A stretch of DNA of 32,846 nucleotides from Candidatus Firestoneibacteriota bacterium (GTDB lineage: Bacteria; Oederibacteriota; D2-FULL-39-29; CAIOVX01): assembly GCA_903915125.1 (NCBI GenBank), contig CAIWRR010000116.1, forward strand, positions 1 to 32,846, in the 5' to 3' direction. Made by a program: the position numbers and the translations under genes. The notes beneath the pieces were generated by a model. That model was not told the DNA's origin. It made no database searches and saw nothing but the letters and a program-made list of their open reading frames with translations. Positions 1 to 19,825 of this stretch are shown piece by piece (position 1 is the stretch's first letter; the number at the start of each line of letters is the position of its first letter).

Positions 1-31
1 GCGTCTTGTTCTGTAAGGAATGATATCTTTC

Positions 32-52
32 ATGCCAGACTCCGTCTGGCAT
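32..52. repeat. Perfect 9-bp inverted repeat (REP-like hairpin)
   Basis: ATGCCAGAC, a 3-base loop TCC, then GTCTGGCAT form a perfect 9-bp stem. Neither strand has a run of T after the stem, so this does not look like an ordinary Rho-independent terminator. It lies beyond the 3' end of the Spy-like gene, outside the 9-bp-unit repeat. Short GC-rich palindromes of this shape are often REP elements or transposon-end relics, but only one copy is in the window. Confidence 0.6.
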
Positions 53-58
53 AGCAGA

Positions 59-168
59 ATAACGTTTGTAACGAAATCACGACCAGCGATGCGCCTAGAC
101 TGCTCTTTGACCTGTTAGTGATTTTGCCTTACGTTATAAACGTTACAAACTTTACAAACGTTATAAAC
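59..168. repeat. Palindromic 9-bp-unit repeat, copy 1 (after the spy-like gene)
   Basis: The right arm at 132-168 is four tandem 9-mers (CGTTATAAA, CGTTACAAA, a diverged CTTTACAAA, CGTTATAAA) plus a final C. A shorter left arm at 59-73 carries about two units in the opposite orientation (ATAACGTTTGTAACG). Between them lie about 58 bases of unrelated sequence. The right arm ends 8 bases from the stop codon of the minus-strand Spy-like gene at 177. Copies 2 and 3 have the same unit, orientation and stop-codon placement. Confidence 0.8.
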
Positions 169-176
169 TTCTTGCT

Positions 177-722
177 TTACTGTTTCCCTTCCGGCCTATT
201 TCTATCCCTTACCTCCTTCGCCATCTCAGTCAGATACTTATTAAACTGCCTTTCAAAAGAGATAAGTTTGATCCTCTGTCTTGCTGTAAGGCCTTCCTGC
301 AGTTTCCGCCGGTATTCATTGGTTTTTTGGTGCATCTCAGTCTCAATGTTATCCAATTCATCCAGTTTCTGCTTTAACACATTTTCGTCAGAGTCCTTTA
401 CACCGCTCATTTTATTCAGCTCTTCGGAGATTTTGTTCCTCTTTAGAGCGTAACTCTTCAAAATATCTTCCTGCTCGTAATAGGCCGTGAAGAATTTTCC
501 GGCCTGTTCCGGCGTGAGCTCCAAAACCCTCTTAAGTTTCGCGATTTTCAAATCCTCAATATTCTCTTTGAAATTTCCTGGCCCGGACACCGCATCAGGC
601 CTTGCAGGCCTCTGAATCTGCGGATGAACCGGACGCGCGCCTTTTTCAGGCGTGGTCACATCCTGTTGCGCAAATGCAAAACCCGCGATAAAGGTCAGCA
701 TAATCGCTATTTTTGTTTTCAT
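177..722 (-). CDS. Secreted Spy/CpxP-like periplasmic protein (LTxxQ family)
   Basis: This is a small exported helical protein of 181 residues. The N-terminus (MKTKIAIMLTFIAGFAFAQQ) is a signal peptide with likely cleavage after AFA. Two LTxxQ-type motifs are visible: LTPEQ in the middle and LTARQ near the C-terminus. Paired LTxxQ motifs are the hallmark of Spy/CpxP periplasmic chaperones and stress sensors. The region between them is highly charged and probably helical. I chose the ATG at 722 because GGAGG lies a few bases upstream; a start 30 bases further out lacks this and would precede the signal peptide. It follows gspD by 68 bases and is probably the last gene of the T2SS operon. Chaperoning of secretin or exported substrates is inference. 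Confidence 0.72.
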   Translation of the reverse strand: MKTKIAIMLTFIAGFAFAQQDVTTPEKGARPVHPQIQRPARPDAVSGPGNFKENIEDLKIAKLKRVLELTPEQAGKFFTAYYEQEDILKSYALKRNKISEELNKMSGVKDSDENVLKQKLDELDNIETEMHQKTNEYRRKLQEGLTARQRIKLISFERQFNKYLTEMAKEVRDRNRPEGKQ

Positions 723-790
723 TTTACCTCCGCTTCTTTGCGAATTAGACACCGCCGGCTCCGCTATGGTTTAATTGCGCCGTTGAAGCC

Positions 791-2692
791 CTACTTGCCG
801 AGCTTCTCCATTCTCCGCTCCATTGACCTTATGGTTTCCCCTGAATCTTTCGCGTTATCAATTATATGAGGAGTAAGGAATATCAGCAATTCCGACTTCT
901 CTTTTGTTGTCTGGCTGGAGTTAAAGAGGAAACCAATAAGAGGAATATCCCCCAAAATAGGAACCTTGTTTTCGGTGACAAGCGACTGGTCGGTCATTAT
1001 GCCGCCAAGCACCATTGTCTCTCCGTCTTTAACGCGGACCGATGTAACCGCATCGCGGTTATCCAGAACGGGAGCACCAAAATAGGTGGTTGAGGTTATC
1101 TTGCTGACATTCTGATGGACAGTCATGGTAACAAAGCTGTCTTGGTTAATATGCGGCGTAACCTCAAGCGTGGTGCCTACTGTGTTGTAGTTATAAGTAT
1201 AAATCACCTGGCCGCCGCTGGTGGTTTGGCTTCCCGTTACATTGGGCACCTGCTGGCCGACGGTCACAGTGGCCTTCTGGTTGTCAAGAGTAAGAATTTT
1301 TGGGGCAGATTTTACGTCAACTTTTGTTTCCTGCATCAGGCTGTGAATTATAGCGCTCGTATTTCCCTGAAGCAGTGAGTACTGGAAGTCAGGGGTTTTT
1401 CCGGAGAGAGCCAAAGAGTTTGAAAAGGTGCCGTTGTAATCAACCCCGCCAAGTTTTGGAATACCGGGGAGACTCCATTCCACCCCAAGCGCGAGATCCT
1501 TTGTAAGAGTAACATCTACCACCAGGACTTCCACAAGAACCTGAGACTGTTTCTTGTCGAGTTGTTCAAGGGTTGTCCGTATTAAAGAAAGAGTCTGCGG
1601 CGTCGCTACCGCGATCAGAGTGTTGCTGGTAGCCTCTGCCACAATAGTCACCGTCTCTCCCGGCTGCTGGGTGCCGCCCAAACCATACTGCGGCCCGCGG
1701 AACTGCTGGTTTGCCTGGTTGGTAATCGTGGTAGCATTGTTGAAGACCTGGTTCAGAACATTCGCGAGGTTCTTCGAGTCGCCGAATTTCAGCGGGTAAA
1801 TATTTACCGAGAGGGCTCTGGTGGAGGCTTTCTCCAGGCTGTCAATAATTGTCAGCAGCGTCTTAATATTTGAAAGGCTGTTGATTACTATCAAGGAATT
1901 TGAAGAGTCGTTTGACAGAATCATTCCCCAGAGCGGTATCAGCGAAGAAAGGTCTATCCTTATCTTCGAAGCAGTCAAATTCTTCAGCGGTATTATCTGG
2001 AGCACTACATCGTCTCCCTCGGTCGCCAAAGCCGGATCCGCGTTAACAACGATGCGGAGATTGGCCTGCCGTAAACCCGCCACCGGGACTATTTTCATTA
2101 CGCTTCCCGTAAGAATAGCGGAGTAGCCTTTGCTAAGAAGCACAACATCGAGTATTTTGAAAGCCTCTTCCAGAGAAACTTGCCCCTTGGAATAGACAGT
2201 AACATTGCCCGCAACAGGCCCGATGTGTTTGAACGGTTCCTGTTTGGCCTGCTGTTGCTGCTGTTGCTGTTGAACAGCGTAATAAGGCTGGTTCAATTGC
2301 GGTGTGCCTTGCTGGGATTGCGGATCTGTAATGACGCTTGTCGGAACATCTCCGCCGAGATTCACCATCGTCAAACCGCTCGCGTTCGAAAGGAACTCAA
2401 TGAGTTTTGCTATATCCTCTTCCTTGAAACTGAACTGGACTTTTTTTGTCCAGTCAACCCCCGGCACATCTGAGAATTTTTTGTAGGGGATCGCGGGCAT
2501 TCCTGCGTCTGTAGCTGCCGTTGAAGCTCCAAGTATCAAAGGCGCCTTTGAGACGGAGACAGTGACCTTGTCATTTTGCTCGGGAGCAAGGGCGTCCGGC
2601 TCCTGCACAAGCCGGATAACATCCCTATTCGCGGCGCAGGATGAAAAGAAAGCTGCCGCAATTAGCACGATTAACATCATTCTGTTTGTCAT
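791..2692 (-). CDS. gspD: Type II secretion outer-membrane secretin GspD
   Basis: This protein forms the outer-membrane channel of the T2SS. The 633-residue product begins with a lipoprotein-like signal (FFSSC, Cys19), so it may be lipidated and need no pilotin. An N0-like fold starts near residue 85 but is interrupted at about 112-158 by a Gln/Pro-rich insert with eight consecutive Gln (141-148). Two NIII-type domains follow (about 211-290 and 293-381), then the secretin core (about 383-620) with the family signature around VPILGDIPLIGFLF. Typical GspD has three NIII-type repeats, so one appears to be missing. AGGAG lies 6 bases before the ATG. Placing gspD last, after gspM, is unusual but the gene is contiguous with the operon. 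Confidence 0.93.
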   Translation of the reverse strand: MTNRMMLIVLIAAAFFSSCAANRDVIRLVQEPDALAPEQNDKVTVSVSKAPLILGASTAATDAGMPAIPYKKFSDVPGVDWTKKVQFSFKEEDIAKLIEFLSNASGLTMVNLGGDVPTSVITDPQSQQGTPQLNQPYYAVQQQQQQQQAKQEPFKHIGPVAGNVTVYSKGQVSLEEAFKILDVVLLSKGYSAILTGSVMKIVPVAGLRQANLRIVVNADPALATEGDDVVLQIIPLKNLTASKIRIDLSSLIPLWGMILSNDSSNSLIVINSLSNIKTLLTIIDSLEKASTRALSVNIYPLKFGDSKNLANVLNQVFNNATTITNQANQQFRGPQYGLGGTQQPGETVTIVAEATSNTLIAVATPQTLSLIRTTLEQLDKKQSQVLVEVLVVDVTLTKDLALGVEWSLPGIPKLGGVDYNGTFSNSLALSGKTPDFQYSLLQGNTSAIIHSLMQETKVDVKSAPKILTLDNQKATVTVGQQVPNVTGSQTTSGGQVIYTYNYNTVGTTLEVTPHINQDSFVTMTVHQNVSKITSTTYFGAPVLDNRDAVTSVRVKDGETMVLGGIMTDQSLVTENKVPILGDIPLIGFLFNSSQTTKEKSELLIFLTPHIIDNAKDSGETIRSMERRMEKLGK

Positions 2693-2761
2693 GATTTCTC
2701 CTGTCCATTTATTTGTTATTTCAGTATGCTAAAGCCGCCGGAACCTTGATGCCGGAGAGGC

Positions 2762-3784
2762 TCATTCATCCGTGTTTGCCCTGTTCCTTCTTGAACGCCT
2801 TAAAGGCTGCGCCGTAGGATAGCCTGGAACCGGCGACAGCGAAGGCGCAGGCGCGCTTTCTTGCGCCCCTGCGGAAACAGGAGGAGCTGCAGTACTCCCG
2901 CTCTTGTTGCCGGCCATCGCATTCATCAGCCAGGCAGGCAGTTTCTCTTTTTCAAAAGCATCTCCAAGCTTCCAGGTGAATTTTTCCGCGCCCACAGTTA
3001 TTTCGACGTTATCTTCTTTGACTGCCGAGCTGCCGCCCGCTTTCTTAAGATCAACCGTTGCCCGCCTGTTCAGCGAATCGGTTACTATGATAAGATCGCT
3101 ATCCCCGTCGCTCATTTGGGCCGTAAGGGTCCACTTGAGGACAGGATCCGGTTCGGTTTCTTCCGCAGGCGGAGATGGCGGTCTCATCTCTGCCTTTATT
3201 TCCGCGAAAATATCCCGCCAGCTTGCCATGAATCTGTCCTGATCGGCATAGACTGCTTTGGCTCCGGCGCCCGCAGCAAGAAACGAGACTGTAGCGGTGC
3301 CTTCCAGTTGTCTCATGCCGGAATAGGAACCGCCGGCAAGGGAACTTATCCTCCAGCTGCTTACCGCGAGCCGAGGGGTTGTATTCTCGCACATAAACAG
3401 GAACCTCTCAAAGGTGCTAAAATTGCAGACAAATCTCATCTGGAAAGCCGAGATGCCGTTAACAGCGCCTGAGGCAGTGTCCTGGAAACTCTTAACCCTT
3501 ATATTGCTTTTCCCGGTAAGTTTCTCCAGGTAATTAAGGAGATAGATAACGGGTTTTTCCTTCTGTTTTCCGGGCTTGCCGTCTGTTGAGGCGGACAGCT
3601 GTTTCTTGAGCAGTTCGGATTTTAAAGAGAGTTGTTCTATTTCGGCAGAGTAAAACCTGTATGAAGCTAAAGACGGCTCAAGGAACTTGACATATATAAC
3701 CGCCGGGATGCCTACGGCAATTATCACAGGTATGGCTATCCTTTCAAAGAAACCACTTTTCCCGAAAAGACTCTTTTTTTCCAT
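2762..3784 (-). CDS. gspM: GspM/PilO-like T2SS inner-membrane protein with C-terminal extension
   Basis: This is assigned mainly by position and architecture. A short cytoplasmic N-terminus is followed by one membrane segment (about 14-34), a coiled-coil stretch (about 45-63) and a PilO/GspM-like alpha/beta region (about 76-170). GspM proteins are usually about 160 residues; this one is 340. The extra half has a Pro-rich linker (about 200-214), a beta-rich stretch (about 217-286, including a VEITVGAEKF strand) and a Pro/Ala/Ser-rich tail. Its ATG overlaps the gspL stop by one base (TAATG), so the two are translationally coupled, as GspL and GspM are partners. The extension could stand in for the missing GspC, but that is a guess. 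Confidence 0.7.
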   Translation of the reverse strand: MEKKSLFGKSGFFERIAIPVIIAVGIPAVIYVKFLEPSLASYRFYSAEIEQLSLKSELLKKQLSASTDGKPGKQKEKPVIYLLNYLEKLTGKSNIRVKSFQDTASGAVNGISAFQMRFVCNFSTFERFLFMCENTTPRLAVSSWRISSLAGGSYSGMRQLEGTATVSFLAAGAGAKAVYADQDRFMASWRDIFAEIKAEMRPPSPPAEETEPDPVLKWTLTAQMSDGDSDLIIVTDSLNRRATVDLKKAGGSSAVKEDNVEITVGAEKFTWKLGDAFEKEKLPAWLMNAMAGNKSGSTAAPPVSAGAQESAPAPSLSPVPGYPTAQPLRRSRRNRANTDE

Positions 3785-5046
3785 TACTTTTCGCCCCTTT
3801 GGCGTATTTTCATCTGGAACTGCACCGCGAGTTTTGCTCCGGTACCGGCGTCGTTCGCGAAAGCGAGCTCCGCGGAATATCCTGGCAGTTTATTGAGATT
3901 TTCGAGAAAAACTGTAACTCCTTGTCTTGTGGCAGAGGAACCCCTGGCCGTCAAATCCCCCTTGTTGTCAGATGATAGTTCGTTCAATATTACTTCCGAA
4001 GGCACGGTCTTGCTTATATCCACGAGCACGCGGCTCCAGACCCTTCCGGAAAGGCCTCCCTGAATAGAAAGCGCGGACTTGAGTTCAGCCGCCTGCTTTT
4101 CCGCCGATTTTGCCATAAAAAACAAAACAAGAGTCAGCACTAAAAAAAGCGCGCTGACCGCGAAGCCGGCTTTCCGGAGGATAGCCAGCATATCTTTGGA
4201 GCGGCCTTCCTGGGCGAGGTTGCTGTTAAGGTTTAGCTTCAGGGCGCCGTGCCCGGTCAAAGCCGACGCAATTCCCGCGCAAAGCGCGAAGTTTACGGGA
4301 TCGGCACCGGCAGACTTCAAGCCCGCGGCAAGTTCAGGAGGAAGGGCCAATAGCGCTGTTTTCATTCCTGACTTTTCGAGTTTTTCGTTTAATTCCGCGG
4401 AATTTGACAATACTTTATCAGGAATAATGCCGGTCATCGCAAGGGCTTCAGCTGCAGCCTTAACCGCCGCAGAAACGTCAGGCTCTTCCAAAAGAGACGC
4501 GCCCCTGGAAAATATTAGCACCCCGTTCTTTGAAACGAGCAGTTCAAAACGGTCCTTTGAAATATATACCGCCATGCAGGTACCGTTCGCCGCGGCTCCG
4601 CTGAGCCTTAAGAGCTCATAAAGCCCTATGGTCGAAGGAACGATAGATAAGCCCTGCTTTTCAAATACCTGCAGCGGTTTAAGTAAAGACTTTAACTGGT
4701 CTGAAGCTGCCGCGGAAAACAGAACAAACGCCTTCCCCCGTGCCGAGGACATGACAGCGGAGTCCCAGAGCGACTTTTCCTTTTCAAAAGGCAGGCCTTC
4801 TTCCGCTTCCTTAAGCACTTCTGCTTGAAGCGCAGCACCCTCAGCTTCAATTTCAAGGGTTCTGACTACGCAGTTTTCCCTCGGGAGAATGACCGTGACC
4901 GCTCCGCGCGGAAGCGCCTTATTCAGCCCGGAAGGATATTCCGCGGCCTGAAGGACTTGAAAACCGCTCTTATCTTTACTGCGGACCGAGAGCAGTCTCG
5001 CGGACCCGTTTACCAACTCTACTATATTGAAGGTCTTCTCAAACAT
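3784..5046 (-). CDS. gspL: GspL/PilM-PilN-like T2SS inner-membrane assembly protein
   Basis: This is the inner-membrane platform protein that links the GspE ATPase to the periplasm. The first ~285 residues resemble the PilM/GspL actin-like (ASKHA) fold, with short strands such as CMAVYISKDRFELLVSKNG. A single membrane helix follows (about 293-312, ending VLFFMA), then a PilN-like periplasmic region ending in short strands. I chose the ATG at 5046 because AGGACGG lies 4 bases upstream. A longer frame to 5085 would add 13 residues overlapping gspK and has no ribosome-binding site. The stop overlaps the gspM start. Confidence 0.8.
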   Translation of the reverse strand: MFEKTFNIVELVNGSARLLSVRSKDKSGFQVLQAAEYPSGLNKALPRGAVTVILPRENCVVRTLEIEAEGAALQAEVLKEAEEGLPFEKEKSLWDSAVMSSARGKAFVLFSAAASDQLKSLLKPLQVFEKQGLSIVPSTIGLYELLRLSGAAANGTCMAVYISKDRFELLVSKNGVLIFSRGASLLEEPDVSAAVKAAAEALAMTGIIPDKVLSNSAELNEKLEKSGMKTALLALPPELAAGLKSAGADPVNFALCAGIASALTGHGALKLNLNSNLAQEGRSKDMLAILRKAGFAVSALFLVLTLVLFFMAKSAEKQAAELKSALSIQGGLSGRVWSRVLVDISKTVPSEVILNELSSDNKGDLTARGSSATRQGVTVFLENLNKLPGYSAELAFANDAGTGAKLAVQFQMKIRQRGEK

Positions 5047-5072
5047 TTTCCGTCCTTTGATTTCTCCCGTTT

Positions 5073-5915
5073 TTATTCTTCCCACCAGTCAAGAATATAG
5101 ATTATTTCATGTTTGTCCAGCCAATTTTCTACTACTGTGTTTATTGTTACTTTAATTGTATCATTCAATGTTGCGGTAGACCTTACGCGAAATACCGGGG
5201 CCGAGAAAGTGAAATAGTTTACATTTGGCAAAGCCATCCTTGGCGCTCTGCTTGAAATAAAGGCCCACACACTCCTGTCCCGAAAGGGGCGCTTCTGTAT
5301 AAGCTGAGGCGTCAGCGTCGCCGGCCCGTTAAACTCCTCTATCTGGGTCTTCAATACCATTGAAGAGGCGGTATTAACATTCAAAGAAGCCGACCCCGGA
5401 GTGCCTATCGAGTAGACCGTAAAATAGGGAATAATCTTAAAACAATCATCCACATCAAGTTCCGGAACAAGCCCCAGTTCTTCGACATGAAGAAGAAGCC
5501 CGTGTTCCCGCCTCCACTTCATAACTCCGCGCGCCTTGGTTGCCGCGTCTTTTAGTCCAAGCTCCTCAAACATTCTGCGCATAAGAAATTCCGAAGCGGT
5601 ATTTATATTTGCCTTGCTTTTCTCGTCCTCGATGGTTGCGGTGTAGACGCCCTCCCCGAATTTAACCTCTTTCTTTCCGCTGTTTAGCGAATTTATTCCG
5701 GCGAGGTTGGAATATCTGTTCTGAGCGCGGTTAGTCTCAAAAACCATTGTGTTGGCGCCTGCCCTGGCAACATAGAACGCTTTTACCCTGAGCTCATAAT
5801 TCTTAACCGCCCTCTGCTGGAGCTTAACGTAGACTGTCAACCCGGCGGACACAACCATAAGTATGGCAGAGATCCAGAGAGCAGCCATGGCTATGTAGCC
5901 TCTTTCTCTCTTCAG
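5073..5915 (-). CDS. gspK: Minor pseudopilin GspK (T2SS tip), probable CTG start
   Basis: GspK sits in the pseudopilus tip complex with GspI and GspJ. The sequence KRERG^YIAMAALW is a type III prepilin signal with the hydrophobic helix that follows. It lacks the Glu at mature position 5 carried by the other pseudopilins here, which is typical of GspK. The length (about 280 residues), the helical insert region and the closing strands fit the family. No ATG, GTG or TTG lies close to the signal. I placed the start at CTG 5915, four bases after GAAGGGGG. The open frame continues upstream to a TTG at 6005, but those residues are translated from an intergenic repeat. The start is uncertain; the identity is firm. 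Confidence 0.85.
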   Translation of the reverse strand: MKRERGYIAMAALWISAILMVVSAGLTVYVKLQQRAVKNYELRVKAFYVARAGANTMVFETNRAQNRYSNLAGINSLNSGKKEVKFGEGVYTATIEDEKSKANINTASEFLMRRMFEELGLKDAATKARGVMKWRREHGLLLHVEELGLVPELDVDDCFKIIPYFTVYSIGTPGSASLNVNTASSMVLKTQIEEFNGPATLTPQLIQKRPFRDRSVWAFISSRAPRMALPNVNYFTFSAPVFRVRSTATLNDTIKVTINTVVENWLDKHEIIYILDWWEE

Positions 5916-5928
5916 AAAGCCCCCTTCA

Positions 5929-6173
5929 GGAAAATTCGAAGCACTAAATTCGAAATTCGAAACACACTGCGTCGTACAATCAGCTGCGCTTTGAATAAGC
6001 ACCAAATCTCAAATCACAAGCACCAAATAATCATCAAAAAACAAAACAGCAACAAGAAAAAACAACTACCCCAAAACTTTCTTTTTCTATTCTTATGTGT
6101 TTATTTGTGATTTGATGCTTGGGATTTGGTGCTTCATCCCGTTTCGAATTTCCTGCTTCAGATTTCGAATTTG
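5929..6173. repeat. Compound palindrome of 7-bp units between gspJ and gspK
   Basis: An inner pair of 34-base arms (5997-6030 and 6101-6134) is built from degenerate A-rich heptamers (AAGCACC, AAATCTC, AAATCAC). The arms match in inverted orientation at 25 of 34 positions. Outside them an outer pair (5929-5965 and 6141-6173) carries repeated ATTCGAA / TTCGAAT blocks, also inverted. The centre (about 6031-6100) is A-rich low-complexity sequence. The element starts 3 bases after the gspJ stop codon and ends just before the gspK ribosome-binding site. It fills this 260-base gap, in which I see no gene. Confidence 0.8.
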
Positions 6174-6175
6174 CC

Positions 6176-6874
6176 CTATCTTTCATATCCCACCAGATTA
6201 ACACACGATTCCAAGACCGCGTAAACAGGCTTGACGCCATAGCTTTTTGCCGTAACCTTAAAATTGACAATCTGAGGGAGCAAGTTATGATAATTATTGC
6301 CTCTTGCTTGCTTAAGCGAATCAGTGTCCCAGCTGTCAACCCAAGACTGTTTTTTGCCGTCGTAATAGGAAAAAACTACAGCGGTAATATTGTCAAGGAC
6401 TTCCTTCTCCTCGTTTTTCCAGGGCGCGGTCGCGAAATCCCATACCGAACTTCTTTGAAAACAGGCTTCAACCCCTTCCGCGGAAGAAGCGGGACCATAC
6501 GTAACCTTGGCCCTGTATGACCGTCTGGGGAAATACTCCGGCCAGTAAAGAGAGACCGGCCTGGAATAGGTCATTACTTCCACGGAAGCCGCCGTGCCTT
6601 TAAATGCGAAATAATCTCTTTTGATAAGCGCCGATGCAAAACCGGAGTTTTTGCCAAAAAATACCGGTTCCGAGGCGCCCGTGGATCTTAAATCCCTGGT
6701 TAAATTTTTTATCATGTTGCGGGCTGAAAGATAGGCCTCGCATTCTTTGCGGTAATTGTCGTATGCGCCCAATCCCGCGGAAAAAGTAGTGTACACTCCG
6801 GACATTATAATGACTATGATCGCGAGCCCCACCATAAGTTCTATCAGCGTATACCCGCGCTCTCTCAGTTCCAA
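6176..6874 (-). CDS. gspJ: Minor pseudopilin GspJ
   Basis: GspJ is a minor pseudopilin of the T2SS tip complex. The N-terminus reads RERG^YTLIELMVGLAIIV: a prepilin peptidase site, Glu at mature position 5 and a long hydrophobic helix. The rest is beta-rich, and the length of 232 residues is normal for GspJ. The start is a TTG at 6874, overlapping the last ten bases of gspI; the codons before the processing site leave little room for another choice. It is followed by the heptamer palindrome rather than directly by gspK. Confidence 0.86.
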   Translation of the reverse strand: MELRERGYTLIELMVGLAIIVIIMSGVYTTFSAGLGAYDNYRKECEAYLSARNMIKNLTRDLRSTGASEPVFFGKNSGFASALIKRDYFAFKGTAASVEVMTYSRPVSLYWPEYFPRRSYRAKVTYGPASSAEGVEACFQRSSVWDFATAPWKNEEKEVLDNITAVVFSYYDGKKQSWVDSWDTDSLKQARGNNYHNLLPQIVNFKVTAKSYGVKPVYAVLESCVNLVGYER

Positions 6875-7257
6875 TTCTGCACCGCCGGCATCCTCGTAAT
6901 GAAAAGGCTTTCGAGGTTCATTGAACGGTCAGCCCTGCGGGACGTATAGGCAACGCTCAGTTTTATGTTTATAAGCGAATAGAAATTTGTCCTTTGAACA
7001 ACGGCTGATTGCTGCGACCAGGAATAGCCCGGCCAGTCTGCCCCGAAATCTCCCGACTCAGAAGCCTTGAATGCGTCGCGCCCGCCGAGCTGTTCCATCT
7101 CCTTTTGCGCCAGCGTTACCGCTATGCTTTGCTTTTTTATCTCTTCGACAGCCGCAAGCCCTGCCGCGACAGACTGGAGAGCCGCAACTATCACTATGCT
7201 CAAAATAGCAACGCCGACAAGCGCTTCCAGAAGTATGTAGCCCCTGTTACTTTTCAT
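6865..7257 (-). CDS. gspI: Minor pseudopilin GspI
   Basis: GspI nucleates the pseudopilus tip. The sequence MKSNRG^YILLEALVGVAIL is a classic type III prepilin signal with Glu5, and the following ALAQKEMEQL-like segment (here VTLAQKEMEQLGG) is typical of GspI. The length of 130 residues matches the family. The ATG at 7257 lies inside the last codons of gspH (11-base overlap), and the stop lies inside the start of gspJ, so H, I and J are translationally coupled. Prepilin peptidase must be encoded elsewhere. Confidence 0.9.
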   Translation of the reverse strand: MKSNRGYILLEALVGVAILSIVIVAALQSVAAGLAAVEEIKKQSIAVTLAQKEMEQLGGRDAFKASESGDFGADWPGYSWSQQSAVVQRTNFYSLINIKLSVAYTSRRADRSMNLESLFITRMPAVQNWN

Positions 7258-7771
7258 AGTTCAGCAATTTTACCGTCCCGGTGGTTGCCGCGAAAACCAG
7301 CGTATAAATTTCACCTATTGCTCCGGAGAGCACCACGGAACCGCTCTCCGAACTTCCGTCAGGGTAAAAGGTTATGTAATCCGGCGCTCCCGACGCGGCC
7401 GCTCCCGAAATAGACCGAGGCGTGTTTAAGCTCTTTATGGCTACTTCGCTGATTAGAACTATCTGTTTTACCTCGGCCGGAACCTCGTACTGCAGAGTAG
7501 CCGGGTTCATTCCGGATAGCGTTACGGTGTTCGCTCCGGGGTCAAAGGTTACGCGGTAATTGACCCCTTTTGCCTCTGCAAGATTCCTCGCCAGATCTGA
7601 CATTCCGGCGGACTTCGCGGCCTCCAGATAGGCCTTTTTCGAAGCATAGAAATTCCCGAACCAGATTGAGAGCACAGCCGTCATCGATATGATTATCGAT
7701 ACGACGATAAGCATTTCAACTAGCGTGAATCCGCGGTTATTTATTCTCTGACCAGTTCGTAATATCCGCAT
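7247..7771 (-). CDS. gspH: Minor pseudopilin GspH
   Basis: GspH joins the major pseudopilin shaft to the tip. The N-terminus has a 13-residue basic leader, then NNRG^FTLVEMLIVVSIII with Glu5. The 174-residue length and the beta-rich C-terminal half fit GspH. The ATG at 7771 overlaps the end of gspG by 35 bases, an unusually long overlap. An AGGG lies about 6 bases upstream and no other standard start codon sits closer to the signal, so I kept it. Confidence 0.85.
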   Translation of the reverse strand: MRILRTGQRINNRGFTLVEMLIVVSIIISMTAVLSIWFGNFYASKKAYLEAAKSAGMSDLARNLAEAKGVNYRVTFDPGANTVTLSGMNPATLQYEVPAEVKQIVLISEVAIKSLNTPRSISGAAASGAPDYITFYPDGSSESGSVVLSGAIGEIYTLVFAATTGTVKLLNYEK

Positions 7772-8174
7772 CAGGACCCTGCCCGCCTTCCTTGCCGTCT
7801 CTGCCGTATGAGCAGAGATCGTATCCGTTTGGATTATTCAAACCGGGACACATGTAGATGTATGTACCGCTCCAGGGATCGTTTCCGACCCGTTTCTTTA
7901 TATATGGGCCTTTCCAGCTGGTTGGAACCGGCTGGCTGGTAGGCGCGTTATAGAGCGCGTCCAAACCTTGCTCGGTCGTCGGATAAAAACCGTTATCCGC
8001 CTCGTAGGCGTCGAGAGCCAGCTCCATCGTCGCAATATCTGATTTCGCCGCCGCTATTCTCGCATCCTCAGTTCTGCCGAAAAACCTCGGTGCGAGCGTT
8101 GAGGCGAGGATGACGATAATTACGACGACTGTAAGGATTTCGATTAGGGTAAATCCTCTTTCCTTTTTGAACAT
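7737..8174 (-). CDS. gspG: Major pseudopilin GspG
   Basis: GspG is the main subunit of the T2SS pseudopilus. MFKKERG^FTLIEILTVVVII gives the prepilin signal with Glu5. The body carries the family features YPTTEQGLDAL, a WKGPYI segment, NDPWSG and the C-terminal SYGRDGKEGG calcium-binding loop. Its 145 residues match the family. Two Cys (109 and 121) flank the NPNGYDL loop and could form a disulfide. GGAGG lies 5 bases before the ATG. A palindromic repeat separates it from gspF, so its message may be processed or stabilised separately, as would suit a high-abundance subunit. Confidence 0.94.
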   Translation of the reverse strand: MFKKERGFTLIEILTVVVIIVILASTLAPRFFGRTEDARIAAAKSDIATMELALDAYEADNGFYPTTEQGLDALYNAPTSQPVPTSWKGPYIKKRVGNDPWSGTYIYMCPGLNNPNGYDLCSYGRDGKEGGQGPDADITNWSENK

Positions 8175-8191
8175 AAGGCCTCCAAAATTAA

Positions 8192-8283
8192 GTTTATAAC
8201 GTTTGTAACGTTCTTAACGTTTATAACGAATAGCACAAATGCTTTACGTTACAAACCTTACAAACGTTATGAACGTTATAAAC
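8192..8283. repeat. Palindromic 9-bp-unit repeat, copy 2 (gspF-gspG gap)
   Basis: This is the cleanest copy. A 37-base left arm (8192-8228, units like GTTTATAAC) and a 37-base right arm (8247-8283, units like CGTTATAAA) flank an 18-base centre. The left arm's reverse complement matches the right arm at 31 of 37 positions, so the transcript could fold into a long imperfect hairpin. It starts 2 bases after the gspF stop codon and ends about 8 bases before the gspG ribosome-binding site. The bases GCTTTACGTTA at the inner edge of the right arm recur in copy 3. Confidence 0.9.
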
Positions 8284-8285
8284 CG

Positions 8286-9395
8286 CTATTTAACAATCGA
8301 ACTCAATCCCAATATCGGAAGCAAAACCGCGATTACCACGAATCCTACGCCTACTGCCATCACCAGTATCATGATTGGCTCAAGAAGGATTACGATTCTT
8401 CGCGTGGTCATTTCCATCTCTTTCTCGTAGTATGCGGCAACCCTGCTCATAACATCCTCAAGTTTGCCTGTTTCTTCCCCTACCTGAATCATTTGAATTA
8501 TGGTTTTGGGAAAGAACGGGACATCTTTCAACGCGAGCGATAGACTGGCACCCCTCTCAACGCTTTTTGCGGCTCCCTTTATATGTTTGGAAAGGACCGC
8601 GTTGCCGATAGTTTCGCCTGTTATTGAGAGCGCCTGCAGCATCGGTACTCCGCTTCCGGCCATTATGCTCAAAGAAAAGGAAAACCTCGTCAATAGGGCC
8701 TTTCGCATTGCCGTGCCAAAAAGCGGAAGGTAGAGCACTGCCGTATCAATTACCTCCCTGCCTTTTTCCGTGCGCGAGTAACGCGAATAAAATATTGCTC
8801 CGGCCGCAACTGCCGCGAGAATAACCCACCAGTAGCCGGTAAAGAATGAGCTGATGCCCATCAGTATCACTGTCGGGAGAGGAAGCGCCTGCTTGAATTC
8901 CGCGAAGAGCGTAACAAAAGTAGGGAGTATAACGGCCAGAATGAAAACCAGCACGGAAATCCCGACAAAGAGCATTATCATCGGGTAGATCATCATAGTT
9001 GAAATCTTTGACTGGAAATCCTCTTCCCATTCAAGCTGGTCGGCATACTTGGCCAGCGTTTTCTCGAACATGCCGGTGACCTCTCCGACTTTGATAAGCC
9101 CTACCATAAGAGGAGGAAAGGTTTCCGGATATTCGGATAAACATTCCGAGAAAGGAGTCCCGCCCTTTATCTTGTCTTTTATCTTTCCAACTATGCCTTT
9201 AAGCCTGGACTCTTCCATGCTATCCCAGAGTGTATTCATCGCCTGGTATAGCGGAACCCCTGCTCCGGACATAGTTGCCAGCTGGCGCGTGAAGGCGCTC
9301 AGCTGCCCCACGCTCACCTTAGGAACATATAGGGAATTAAGCCGTTTGACGGCTTTTTTTATTGAATCCAGCGCGCTGTCAGCCAACGTCTTCAT
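8286..9395 (-). CDS. gspF: T2SS inner-membrane platform protein GspF
   Basis: GspF is the polytopic inner-membrane platform protein. Two T2SSF repeats are visible, each opening with an aromatic/TRQLATM or TRFSFSL motif (FTRQLATMSGAGVPL and LLTRFSFSLSIMAGSG). Membrane helices lie before and after the second repeat, the last ending VGFVVIAVLLPIL. It is 369 residues, shorter than the usual ~400. The N-terminal segment that normally opens with a YKAxDxxG-type motif is absent. The ATG at 9395 overlaps gspE and sits directly against AGGAGG. A TTG at 9386 would have better spacing, so the start could be three codons later. Confidence 0.9.
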   Translation of the reverse strand: MKTLADSALDSIKKAVKRLNSLYVPKVSVGQLSAFTRQLATMSGAGVPLYQAMNTLWDSMEESRLKGIVGKIKDKIKGGTPFSECLSEYPETFPPLMVGLIKVGEVTGMFEKTLAKYADQLEWEEDFQSKISTMMIYPMIMLFVGISVLVFILAVILPTFVTLFAEFKQALPLPTVILMGISSFFTGYWWVILAAVAAGAIFYSRYSRTEKGREVIDTAVLYLPLFGTAMRKALLTRFSFSLSIMAGSGVPMLQALSITGETIGNAVLSKHIKGAAKSVERGASLSLALKDVPFFPKTIIQMIQVGEETGKLEDVMSRVAAYYEKEMEMTTRRIVILLEPIMILVMAVGVGFVVIAVLLPILGLSSIVK

Positions 9396-10893
9396 CCTCC
9401 TGCGTGACCTTTATAACTTCATCAATGGTAGTAATACCCTTTCTCACGCGTTCAAAACCGTCATCGCGCAGGGATCTCATGCCGAATTCTCTCGCCTTAT
9501 TCTTGATATCCCCTGTCATTGAGTGTTCCATTACCATTTTCTTAAGCTGCTCATTCATCGTAAGCAGCTCGTAAATACCGCTCCTGCCGTAATAGCCGGT
9601 GTTAAGGCACTTCTCACAGCCTGTGCCTTTCATAAACTTATCGCCGGGCCTTCTTTCAAATCTGAAATCCGCCAGGTGATCGTTGCCGGGATCGTAAGGT
9701 TTACCGCAGCTGTCGCAGACAACGCGGACCAGCCGCTGCGCCATTATCCCTATGACTGAAGAAGCGACAAGATAGGGTTCTATTCCCATGTCAATAAGCC
9801 TGGTTATTGAACCTGCAGCGTCATTAGTGTGGAGTGTGGCAAAAACCAGATGGCCGGTTAGCGACGCCCTGATGGCTATCTCGGCAGTCTCAAGATCCCT
9901 GATCTCTCCTATCATTATGATATCCGGATCGTGCCGCAGTATGTGGCGGAGTCCCTTCGCAAAAGTCAGGCCGATTTTCGCATTTACTTGTATCTGATTT
10001 ATGCCTGAGAGATGATACTCAACCGGCTCCTCAACCGTAATTATCTTCACGCTTGCGGAGTTAATCCTTGAAAGAGCCGTATAGAGGGTGGTGGTCTTGC
10101 CGCTGCCTGTCGGGCCGGTCACAAGAAAAATCCCGTGCGGCCTTGCTATAATGTTCTCAAAAGCTTTGTGTGTGTCGGGAAGCATGCCGAGCTGCTCCAT
10201 GCCGAACAAGATACCGGCCTTGTCAAGTATTCTCATAACAACTCCCTCCCCGTATAGGGTCGGGATAACCGAAACACGGCAGTCAATCTGCTTGCCGCCG
10301 GATTTAAGCTCTATCCTTCCGTCCTGCGGCAGCCTGCGTTCGGCGATATTCATCTCTGCCATAATCTTGATTCTGGAGACTATCGCCCCGCGGAAATACT
10401 TTAATTCCGCGGGCATCGGGACATCCCTGAGCACGCCGTCTACGCGGAATCTGACTTGAAGCTCCCGTTCGAAGGGTTCCAGGTGAATATCGGTAGCCCT
10501 TTCTTTCAGGGCCTCCAGGAAGAGTTGGTTTACAAACTGGATAACGGACGCATCCTGAGCCATCGCGGTCTCGTCTATCTGCTCGGCTTCCGGGCCTGAT
10601 CTGTCAAGAGACGCGCCACTTTCAGCTATCATTTTTGCGACGGTATCGGCGCCGACTCCGTAATGTTTCTTTATGGCCAGCGTTATCTCTTCTTCCGGGG
10701 TTTCAACAGGCGTGACAGGCTTGCCAAATATAAGCCTAATTTCATCAAGCACCTGCAAATTGCGGCGGTCGGTTACGGCAACGACTATTGAGCCGTTCTC
10801 TTCTTTGACGGGAATTGCCTTGAATTTATTGGCGAACTTCAGGGGAAGCTTGGCGATAAGCCTTGTGTCAATCTCGATATTAGAGAGCTTCAC
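9379..10893 (-). CDS. gspE: T2SS assembly ATPase GspE
   Basis: GspE is the cytoplasmic hexameric ATPase that drives pseudopilus assembly. The N-terminal domain (about 1-75) contains a KFKAIPV segment. The Walker A motif GPTGSGKT is at 260-267, followed by the HDPDIIMIGEIRD Asp/Walker B region and the TLHTNDA His box. A Cys4 zinc module (CDSC and CEKC, about 395-440) is typical of GspE. The length of 504 is normal. The start is a GTG at 10893 with only a weak ribosome-binding site; an in-frame stop lies just upstream, so no longer start is possible. A 9-codon open frame with a better ribosome-binding site overlaps it. It is the first gene of the T2SS operon. Confidence 0.95.
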   Translation of the reverse strand: MKLSNIEIDTRLIAKLPLKFANKFKAIPVKEENGSIVVAVTDRRNLQVLDEIRLIFGKPVTPVETPEEEITLAIKKHYGVGADTVAKMIAESGASLDRSGPEAEQIDETAMAQDASVIQFVNQLFLEALKERATDIHLEPFERELQVRFRVDGVLRDVPMPAELKYFRGAIVSRIKIMAEMNIAERRLPQDGRIELKSGGKQIDCRVSVIPTLYGEGVVMRILDKAGILFGMEQLGMLPDTHKAFENIIARPHGIFLVTGPTGSGKTTTLYTALSRINSASVKIITVEEPVEYHLSGINQIQVNAKIGLTFAKGLRHILRHDPDIIMIGEIRDLETAEIAIRASLTGHLVFATLHTNDAAGSITRLIDMGIEPYLVASSVIGIMAQRLVRVVCDSCGKPYDPGNDHLADFRFERRPGDKFMKGTGCEKCLNTGYYGRSGIYELLTMNEQLKKMVMEHSMTGDIKNKAREFGMRSLRDDGFERVRKGITTIDEVIKVTQEDEDVG

Positions 10894-10952
10894 GCTTTTT
10901 ACACCGCATTATTGGCGCTCCTTTTGACACAATACATACTTACTTTGTAACA

Positions 10953-10958
10953 ATTATA
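10953..10958 (-). promoter_or_regulatory. Candidate -10 box (TATAAT) upstream of the T2SS operon
   Basis: A perfect TATAAT on the minus strand lies about 60 bases before the gspE start, in the only sizeable gap ahead of the operon. The hexamer 17 bases further upstream (AAACTT) is a poor -35 box. The promoter is therefore either activator-dependent or lies elsewhere in 10894-11043. The rest of this gap holds repeat copy 3. Confidence 0.35.
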
Positions 10959-11043
10959 CTCTTTTCAACGGCTTTAAGTTTCGAAATACCTTACAGAACC
11001 TAAACATTAAACAATTGGAGGGGAACTTCCTTCAAGCTATGCG

Positions 11044-11160
11044 GTTTATAACGTTACTAACGTTTGTAACGTTAATAACGAAAACAAAAGACACCACTAC
11101 CCCACAACATCTGAATACCAAACACTGCTTTACGTTATAAACGTTAAGAACGTTATAAAC
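11044..11160. repeat. Palindromic 9-bp-unit repeat, copy 3 (after the BNR lipoprotein)
   Basis: A 37-base left arm (11044-11080, four units) and a 28-base right arm (11133-11160, three units: CGTTATAAA, CGTTAAGAA, CGTTATAAA) flank a 52-base centre. The centre is unlike those of copies 1 and 2. The right arm ends 4 bases from the stop codon of the BNR-repeat gene. The inner-edge sequence GCTTTACGTTA matches copy 2. Confidence 0.87.
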
Positions 11161-11164
11161 CTTA

Positions 11165-13378
11165 TTATTTAAGTGTTTTCTTCCACACCCCTCCTCCAAA
11201 TGTCGCCACATACATATTCCCGCCTTCGTAATCAAAAAGTATCCGCTGAGAGGACGCAAACGGGAAGTCAGTTTCGGACCATGCGGCTCCGCCGTCAAAA
11301 CTTTCCAGCATTCCTCTTCCTTCGGTAGTCAGCAGGATGTGTTTTGTATTCCGCGGGTCTATGCAGGGCTTGAACGGATAAATCACTTTCGGAGAAATAT
11401 CTTTGGTCAAATTCTTCCAGGTCTTCCCGCCGTCAACAGTTTTGAAGACTCCGCCATAGACAACTTTTTTTAAACTTCCCATTGCGGCAAGATAAATAGT
11501 GCCAGGTTCATTCGGATCTATCTCAAACTCTACCGGCCAGAGAAGCGGGGTACCATCGCACTCGCTGGCAACCAATTCCCAATTTTCGCCGCGGTCCTTT
11601 GACCTAAAGAGACCGCCGGGCACGGGATAATCATTTGTGCCTTTAATCCTGCGGGCGGTTATGAGACAATAAAGCGTTCCGTTCCTGTCCTTCGCGATAG
11701 TATAGACATCCGTATTGTCTGCGGCTTTTTTATGGTCTGAGTTATTCTTTACTGCCAGGCCGTTAGATTTTTTCACCCAAGTCTTTCCGCGGTCAAGGGA
11801 TTTATAAACACCGTCAGAATACATCACGGCATACAGGGCATTATCCGCGCGGTCAAAGAGCAGTTTTGTGCAGGCAACCTTCGGCAGGCCGTCAGAGATA
11901 ACCGTCCACGTTTTGGCGTAATCCGAGCTCCTCAGCACTCCTCCGGGATATTTTGTCCCTTCGCAGTTTGACCAGTGCGGGATGTCGTGCTCGTTTGAAG
12001 CAGCACCGTAAACAACGCCCGGGGCGTCAGGATCAAATGCCAGATCATAGACCGTGTTCAACCAGGCGCTCCCTGAAATTGCGATTGCCCAGCTATTACC
12101 GGAATCCTCGCTCCTCGCAAAACCGATATCCGTGTAACATATGTAGTGAATGTTACGGTTATTAGGATCAATATAATAATTCCAGCTGGAAGACTCTTCC
12201 AACCCCTGCGTCTGCCAAACTGCTCCCTTTACCGGGGCTCCTTCCCGCATAAGCTTGGAGTAGGAATAATTCCAGCTCTTTCCTCCGTCAAGCGTAATCA
12301 TCAGCTCGCCCATTCCGCAGCCGGCCATTATGTCAGGATTTGAAGGGCAGATATTGGCCCCCTGTGTCAGCGGACCGGAGTAGCCCTTCCCGTACTCATA
12401 GGTAATCCAACCGAGCTTTACATTTTTGTAGTTGTCCGGCTTGAAAACATTCTTCCAGGTATTACCCGCGTCAGTCGACTTATAAATATCAAAAAGTTCT
12501 CTGTTGGTCACATAAAGTGTGTCAGGGGCGGACTCCGCCACATAAACCGCGAAGGGATTCGGCGCGGCCCTTATCCCTGGGGCAGTCATCTCCCAGCTTT
12601 CTCCGCGGTCAGACGAACGCCAGAGTTCTGTTCCTGCAAGGCAATAGAGCATGCATTTCCCGTCAGCGCTGCCTCCGGCAAAACTTTTCATTCCCGGCTT
12701 GCTAAACTTTGAAATCCAGGTTTTCCCGCCGTCAGTTGACTTAAAGATACCGCTCTTTGTAGCGGCAAAGAAGGACTTTTTGTCATTGCCGGAACTCAAG
12801 TCTGCAAGGAAATTCAGCGAGCTTCCGGTAACGCCTTCACAGGCGTTCCAGGATTTTCCCCCGTCAAGGCTTAAAAAAGCGCCTTTGTCCGTGCCGAAAA
12901 ACATAGTATCAGGAGTTTCTCTGTCTAAGTAAATTCTGGTCACGCTGTCGGTTGTCGGCATTTTATCTGATAAAAGCTTCCAGGAAATTCCGCCGTCCCT
13001 GCTGACCCTGATACCGTACGGGTCGCTGAAACTTTTTCCGGCGCAATAGATGGTTCCCTCCTCTTTAGGATGAAAAACAGGCGTGCACGGGAGTATCGCG
13101 TATAACTGTTTCCAATCAACCGTCTTCCAGGACTTGCCGGAATCATTGCTTATGTAGAACCCGCCCATATCCCCGCCCAGCGCCATTCTTGAAGGATTAA
13201 CCGGCGAGAGAGCCGTTGTCTGCATGCCTGCGGCCTGCCCTATGCCTGTCTCTTTCCAGCCGCAACACTGCTGCCCGGCTTGTGAAGTTTGTGGCAGGCA
13301 ACAGTTTTTATTTGCGGCGCAGCCCGAAAGAATAAATACCAGAAACAAAGAAAGGAACAATGAGCGTTTACCCAACAC
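11165..13378 (-). CDS. Large lipoprotein with 13 Asp-box (BNR) repeats
   Basis: The 737-residue product has a clear lipobox (FILSGC) followed by a Cys-rich linker (CCLPQ...QCCG), so it is probably anchored in the outer membrane. Thirteen Asp-box motifs of the S/TxDxGxxW type run through the protein, from SNDSGKSW, SRDGGISW and SLDGGKSW to TVDGGKTW and SFDGGAAW. This indicates one or two multi-bladed beta-propellers, as in sialidases, GH74 glucanases and VPS10/sortilin domains. I cannot assign catalytic residues. The start is GTG with GGAGG 5 bases upstream. It lies between its own promoter and the T2SS operon, so it may be a T2SS-exported surface protein; that is inference. Confidence 0.85.
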   Translation of the reverse strand: MLGKRSLFLSLFLVFILSGCAANKNCCLPQTSQAGQQCCGWKETGIGQAAGMQTTALSPVNPSRMALGGDMGGFYISNDSGKSWKTVDWKQLYAILPCTPVFHPKEEGTIYCAGKSFSDPYGIRVSRDGGISWKLLSDKMPTTDSVTRIYLDRETPDTMFFGTDKGAFLSLDGGKSWNACEGVTGSSLNFLADLSSGNDKKSFFAATKSGIFKSTDGGKTWISKFSKPGMKSFAGGSADGKCMLYCLAGTELWRSSDRGESWEMTAPGIRAAPNPFAVYVAESAPDTLYVTNRELFDIYKSTDAGNTWKNVFKPDNYKNVKLGWITYEYGKGYSGPLTQGANICPSNPDIMAGCGMGELMITLDGGKSWNYSYSKLMREGAPVKGAVWQTQGLEESSSWNYYIDPNNRNIHYICYTDIGFARSEDSGNSWAIAISGSAWLNTVYDLAFDPDAPGVVYGAASNEHDIPHWSNCEGTKYPGGVLRSSDYAKTWTVISDGLPKVACTKLLFDRADNALYAVMYSDGVYKSLDRGKTWVKKSNGLAVKNNSDHKKAADNTDVYTIAKDRNGTLYCLITARRIKGTNDYPVPGGLFRSKDRGENWELVASECDGTPLLWPVEFEIDPNEPGTIYLAAMGSLKKVVYGGVFKTVDGGKTWKNLTKDISPKVIYPFKPCIDPRNTKHILLTTEGRGMLESFDGGAAWSETDFPFASSQRILFDYEGGNMYVATFGGGVWKKTLK

Positions 13379-18958: not shown

Positions 18959-19825
18959 TCAGTTAAGCCTTGCCAAAAGAGATACATAGGCTGCATTCCC
19001 AAGCATATCATTGAGTTTCATACCGTAGGATAACGAGAAAATGGAAATATTCAATTCAAGCCCGAAGGAAATGCAGTTTAGCAATCCATATTGAGCCGCG
19101 GTGTCGTATCTGTATCCAAGCATCAGCGCAAGAAACTCTTGCGGTTTCACTGAAATGCCTGAGGAGTAGACCGGTGAACCGGAATTCCGGACTTCGACAT
19201 CGACATCCGCCTTTAAGCCGGAGAAAGATAACCCTATCCCGGCCCGCACGAGTTCAGGCAGATCCCGGTAAGTGCCTGCATTTACAAGACAGGCGCCGAA
19301 AGATAAATTGTCTGAGATTGACATAAACCCTGAAATATCATAAAGGACGTGTAAAGCAGAGCTTCCGTCAAGATTTTCATAAGGAAATTTCATGTTAAGC
19401 CCGACAGCGGCCGTCTTGGAAACACCCTTCGCAATTGAGAGTATCGGAACCGCCTGAAAAGGCGAGAAGGTCCCTCCGGAAACCCCAAAACTGTCCCGCC
19501 TTTCCTGCGTGCCGGTCCAAAGATAGATTGCGGAGAAGCCGACCGCAGTGGAATCACCCGTCTGCCAGATTGCCGAGAGAGTTTCATACCGTGAACCCGC
19601 GAAATACTCAGTATGGGAAAAGTTAAGGAATGTACCTTGGAGCGAACACAATCCTGAAGGCGAGAAAAATACTGTATCCGTCTCTTTGGGCAGGCCTGTT
19701 AATGCTCCTCCCATTGCCGCGTATCTCGCGCCCGGGAAAACTCCGAGAAAGGCCAGTTCAGTCGTTTCTGCAAAACAGGGTGCGAACCGAAGAAGAAACA
19801 GAAGAAACACTATTGCGCGCCTCAT
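18959..19825 (-). CDS. PorV/PorQ-like outer-membrane beta-barrel protein
   Basis: The protein has 288 residues from the ATG at 19825. It has a signal peptide (hydrophobic stretch ending FAPCFA), then LGVFPGARYAAMGGALTGL and a FFSPSGL segment. An early run of Gly/Ala-rich ARxxAMGGA followed by NPAGL-like residues is typical of the PorV/PorQ (UPF0164) family related to FadL. The rest is alternating amphipathic strands, consistent with a beta-barrel. I chose this start because GGAGGG lies 8 bases upstream; 25 extra codons run into the ligA terminator. The role is unknown. In other phyla such proteins serve as outer-membrane shuttles or transporters. Confidence 0.75.
   Translation of the reverse strand: MRRAIVFLLFLLRFAPCFAETTELAFLGVFPGARYAAMGGALTGLPKETDTVFFSPSGLCSLQGTFLNFSHTEYFAGSRYETLSAIWQTGDSTAVGFSAIYLWTGTQERRDSFGVSGGTFSPFQAVPILSIAKGVSKTAAVGLNMKFPYENLDGSSALHVLYDISGFMSISDNLSFGACLVNAGTYRDLPELVRAGIGLSFSGLKADVDVEVRNSGSPVYSSGISVKPQEFLALMLGYRYDTAAQYGLLNCISFGLELNISIFSLSYGMKLNDMLGNAAYVSLLARLN

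Follow-up and report, generated by a model that had tools for sequence, protein, structure and literature searches.

A lake bacterium belonging to a genus of Candidatus Firestonebacteria carries, between its genes, polar tandem arrays of a 9-bp unit, GTTANRAAC. The arrays are numerous, follow a strict unit rule with a preference for four units, share an inner cap, avoid gaps between divergent genes, persist in orthologous gaps and often face each other in pairs whose arms do not co-vary. They are present in all four genomes of the genus (4/4). We tentatively favor the reading, at somewhat less than an even chance, that these gene-end arrays are rows of phased recognition sites for a putative sequence-specific factor.

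Within the window, that is, the whole stretch of 32,846 nucleotides analyzed here, ACGTTNNNAACG matched 19 times against 0.13 expected, a number reached by 0 of 100 shuffles. An earlier note had described three copies of a palindrome, at 59-168, 8192-8283 and 11044-11160, each beginning 2-8 bases from the stop codon of a minus-strand gene. All three were recovered at these positions, with the outer ends of the right arms 8, 2 and 4 nt from stops at 177, 8286 and 11165, respectively. The repeating word given for them, CGTTAYAAA, was correct in its 9-bp length but too narrow, since GTTANRAAC, with ANR as middle triplet, fits the units; likewise, inverted arms around a centre were confirmed at 8192 and 11044, but in copy 59-168 the left arm is disrupted. 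As for the adjoining genes, gspF and the BNR gene were borne out by T2SSF (8286-9395) and BNR protein (11165-13378) assignments, and the label "spy-like" for gene 177-752 was unsupported because this gene has no Pfam match. Rfam models gave nothing at gathering threshold in the window.

The gap between gspF and gspG (T2SSG, 7737-8174) holds two complete arrays. The post-stop array of gspF (8248..8283, minus strand) has four units, GTTACAAAC CTTACAAAC GTTATGAAC GTTATAAAC as read on the plus strand, and the pre-start array of gspG (8192..8227, plus strand) has four units, GTTTATAAC GTTTGTAAC GTTCTTAAC GTTTATAAC, with its outer end 17 nt upstream of the start codon at 8174. Both arms are the same in 4/4 genomes of the genus, one base excepted; the unit-by-unit substitution table, which is biased in that its search pattern required the core, was used only for this arm identity. 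The centre (8228..8247) differs in genome G003, which has instead a longer, unrelated centre with a two-hairpin element. At the BNR-repeat gene, a post-stop array of three units (11134..11160, minus strand) faces an inverted partner of four units (11044..11079, plus strand; GTTTATAAC GTTACTAAC GTTTGTAAC GTTAATAAC) across a centre (11080..11133) that is common to G002 and different in G003 and G001. In the remaining copy, the post-stop array of gene 177-752 (133..168, minus strand) has four units, and a leftover unit of its inverted partner (64..72, plus strand) lies to the right of the ~75-bp two-hairpin element. The right-hand part of this element (1..59, plus strand) is inserted in the array and cut by the contig start; it interrupts the left arm, and the remainder of the array is seen beyond it in the G003 orthologue.

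The two-hairpin element, GCCGCAC..GTGCGTCTTG...ATGCCAGAC..GTCTGGCATAGCAGAA, was located inside arrays at window 1-59, at about 18984-19060 of locus L193 and at L172/L049, with 11 matches in genome G000. Among its right ends in the ~0.8 Mb sampled, 17/18 enter TAA/TAG plus a unit, and TAA often stands on both sides, so that it looks like a small mobile element targeting arrays. Loci L077, L161, L137 and L171 share a third, longer module (GATGCCGGAGAAAACCTCACCCTT...AAGAGAAACTCCGGCCTTCAGGCCGCAGAGTTTC) lying between arrays, and higher-order tandem arrays, in which array plus spacer recurs with a period of 53 or about 70 bp, occur at L166 (5973-6214) and L199 (27-270).

The three-unit pattern matched 178 + 169 times in the bacterium's own genome and its reversed control 0 times, identifying a dispersed family. 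Array statistics were taken from sampled stretches, ~0.8 Mb in total, of two genomes (G000 and G003), the G000 stretches having been chosen partly for array content; these contained 154 arrays, against 0 for the reversed-sequence control. Read along the gene, we named the orientation GTTANRAAC R and the other strand, GTTYNTAAC, L. Position 1 of the unit is sometimes C or T. In middle units left unconstrained (n = 81), TT, A7 and C9 were present in 100% and A8 in 80/81, and position 5 (N) was variable. Unit number had its maximum at four (76/132 arrays). Most of 101 arrays had a cap at the inner end that reads GTAAA in the direction of the gene (G.97, T.85, A.90, A.88, A.74), and the outer end was abrupt, without conserved flank. 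Many arrays elsewhere are single, without an inverted partner, which points to the array, instead of the two-armed palindrome, as the basic element.

Placement counts, based on gene calls by a custom script, revealed a clear polarity. Arrays occupied 18/27 convergent, 56/275 tandem and 1/33 divergent gaps (divergent vs convergent, p = 8e-8), and their outer end faces coding sequence. The first array after a stop lay at a median distance of 5 nt (≤14 nt in 45/54), and among 401 stops followed by a gap, an L unit was close by at 77, an R unit at 3 and the reversed control at 1, upholding the suspected preference for gene 3' ends. A fixed 3' placement, as proposed in the earlier note, describes these post-stop arrays but is an incomplete rule, as inverted copies also precede start codons: the last R array lay at a median of 27 nt from the next start (9-40 nt in 21/29 gaps), ending directly upstream of the ribosome-binding region of that gene. 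Single arrays were distributed non-uniformly within gaps (KS p = 1.3e-6). In tandem gaps, R was accompanied by L in 23/29 cases (p = 3e-15), and lone arrays were 22 L vs 6 R (p = 0.004).

Repeats of other lengths were also seen between genes. Period-7 (CAGCAAT) and period-8 (GGAGGGTT) arrays occur in small numbers in G000 and G003 and, close to stops, may follow a strand rule like that of the 9-bp arrays; by eye and in small counts, the period-8 arrays appeared G-rich on the sense strand near stops and mostly C-rich far from them. Inverted copies of a AAATTCGAA-type sequence at window 5932-5955 and 6142-6165 apparently belong to another short repeat family, and period-7 runs like it come after stops in G003 and G005.

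We compared orthologous gaps of G000 and G003, two genomes that differ at 49% of 4-fold sites. Where G000 had an array, one was also present in G003 at 9/12 gaps, and one further gap retained a single unit. Orthologous arrays differed in whole 9-bp units (4 vs 3, 4 vs 1), a few sites had switched to the CC/CT unit class from CG, and in several orthologues singles remained single. Identity by alignment was 86% in the core, 84% at NR and 77% in other intergenic columns of the same gaps; because array columns are just moderately more conserved than their flanks, this is modest evidence of selection on the array itself. Among ~22 orthologous loci read by eye, at high divergence, we found no clean insertion/empty-site pair and no target duplication, so that the earlier note's non-autonomous element, inserting at gene ends, is still a candidate.

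Beyond the genus, exact three-unit matches numbered 0 in 5 sister-family genomes and 36 other genomes of the phylum. Two of the sister-family genomes (G004 and G005) carry isolated 9-bp arrays, built from variant units, after stop codons; exact-pattern searches therefore understate the spread, and restriction to one genus in its order is true only of the AACGTT core. GTTANRAAC arrays with the same triplet rule recur in scattered genomes from three or more other lineages: an Ignavibacteriales genome with 28 matches (none in the 163 further genomes of that order), a Patescibacteria genome, G060, with 42 (a single match in 40 further genomes of that order), and a Prevotellaceae genome with 28. 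Several arrays of the Ignavibacteriales genome begin 1-11 nt after a stop. In G060, mostly three-unit arms surround a conserved ~35-bp centre (GAGTT..AGT..AACTC; L245-L256), a more MITE-like form, and placement is looser, with some arrays in divergent gaps. Thus, the placement rule is strict in Firestonebacteria and weaker in other lineages. In viral contigs, runs of four AACGTT units have the look of coding or low-complexity repeats.

As a row of recognition sites, a polar tandem array of about four GTT(ANR)AAC units, capped at its inner end and with its outer end against coding sequence, would be the maintained unit in place of the palindrome. Its usual site is directly after a stop and, less often, directly before the ribosome-binding region of the next gene, and the putative factor would read it where transcribed genes end, either on DNA or on the nascent RNA. 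The L-centre-R palindrome would then be two arrays facing across one gap, around an exchangeable centre that may be taken by terminators or small mobile elements. Outward symmetry on both sides of genes makes action on DNA the simpler fit, and the scarcity of arrays in divergent gaps agrees with action on transcribed DNA or on RNA. On the other side, the switch of unit class is explained equally well by repeat turnover and by a binding site, other repeat lengths perhaps sharing the placement argue against one dedicated protein, and we identified no candidate array-binding protein, which counts against this reading.

Its main rival, which we regard as a serious if doubtful possibility, is a dispersed repeat, selfish or neutral, that is merely tolerated between genes. 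It would be MITE-like, with terminal inverted repeats built from arrays; singles would be damaged copies, and recognition by a mobilizing enzyme would keep the core fixed. A dispersed family with a common cap, sporadic across lineages, is consistent with this account, as are the co-occurrence of L and R in tandem gaps and the many G060 copies that resemble L-centre-R elements of constant length around a conserved centre. However, the orthologous loci inspected show neither clean empty site nor target duplication, singles stay single in several orthologues, and the excess of L over R singles is unexpected under random arm loss; insertion alone also leaves unexplained a median of 5 nt from the stop in gaps of up to 350 bp. 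Like MITEs, the elements are short and non-coding with inverted arms around a centre; unlike them, many copies are a single arm. With REP/REPIN sequences they share many extragenic copies, a 3' preference and inverted pairs, but they consist of tandem 9-mers, not a 20-40 bp palindrome. A RAYT/Y1 link was rejected: the genus has 8 Y1 matches, around which arrays showed no enrichment (within 1.5 kb at 2/8 loci, and not flanking), and no Y1 transposase was found in the array-bearing G060.

An arm-arm RNA hairpin in the 3' UTR or intercistronic spacer, stabilizing or processing mRNA, appears improbable to us. The pairs bracket the intercistronic gap, and the copies at 8192, 11044 and 59 gave folding z scores of -9.8, -5.4 and -2.3, respectively, against shuffles, yet any inverted array pair would give such stable single-strand folds. 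In 45 distinct L..R pairs, facing middle bases were complementary in 24% of cases vs 35.5% when shuffled, with 4/3000 shuffles as low, and in 28 tandem gaps the array has no partner to pair with. The co-variation between arms expected in the earlier note is thus absent, and its suggestion of a 3' mRNA stabilizer, taken as a hairpin, is contradicted by complementarity below chance. We infer selection against long perfect palindromes.

A functionless, immobile minisatellite made by replication slippage would account for differences of whole 9-bp units between orthologues, but cap and unit are common to unrelated loci, unit number peaks at four with no decay, and placement and polarity follow rules; slippage as sole cause is very unlikely and largely refuted, and it probably drives unit number. 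That the arrays are an accessory part of intrinsic terminators is equally hard to credit: several arrays come directly after a terminator T-tract, but terminators occurred in tandem gaps at 7/41 with an array at the stop vs 37/213 without (p = 1.0), and in convergent gaps at 15/21 vs 15/33 (p = 0.09). Nor is the element itself an intrinsic terminator, as it is without a GC-rich hairpin and T-tract, and we agree with the earlier view that it is no terminator, CRISPR or recognized REP family. Restriction avoidance of AACGTT was rejected on its coding count (50 vs 56 expected). Integron attC sites have core sites RYYYAAC ... GTTRRRY in a gene-cassette context; here, outer units are GTTATAA, not GTTRRRY, and the loci include the conserved gap of a type II secretion operon.

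A literature search for the array sequences returned no match within the library searched. Among described systems, the nearest are heptamer arrays at gene ends in Xanthomonas and Nostoc, GGGAATC / GGGGAYT (Rehm et al. 2015, PMC4692102), which prefer four units, lie sense close after stops and antisense close before starts, are rare between divergent ORFs, and frequently form inverted pairs in Xanthomonas. Between two species, 83% were in the same gene context with unit number changing, and the G-rich units were proposed to form G-quadruplexes (PMC4692102); transcription of the repeats counts as a further trait of this kind. GTTANRAAC arrays resemble them in the four-unit preference, in sense placement after stops and antisense placement before starts, in their scarcity in divergent gaps, in their inverted pairs and in being retained between species with changing unit number. 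Unlike the G-rich 7-mer, the AT-rich 9-bp unit has a degenerate middle and no G-tract and cannot form a G-quadruplex; we therefore filed the family as a variant of gene-end arrays, which shares their layout and lacks the G-quadruplex feature. The TAACTGA direct repeats of Beggiatoaceae, Cyanobacteria and Bacteroidetes (MacGregor 2015, PMC4679880) are similar as short tandem units (there heptamers, 2-6 copies) that are intergenic, sporadic in distant lineages and subject to whole-unit indels, but they are 7-bp, lie within nucleotides of start codons in the main genome and have no post-stop rule.

An AT-rich 9-mer from an unrelated phylum thus matches the Xanthomonas and Nostoc arrays in four-unit preference, polarity and placement, which suggests that the gene-end layout does not require G-quadruplexes. 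Many bacteria might, more speculatively and on our present estimate rather improbably, keep or build outward-polar gene-end arrays of about four unrelated units (G-rich 7-mers, 8-mers, AT-rich 9-mers) through one unrecognized mechanism, in which case the G-quadruplex account of the four-unit preference would be wrong or incomplete. The arrays make what happens at bacterial gene ends a testable question.
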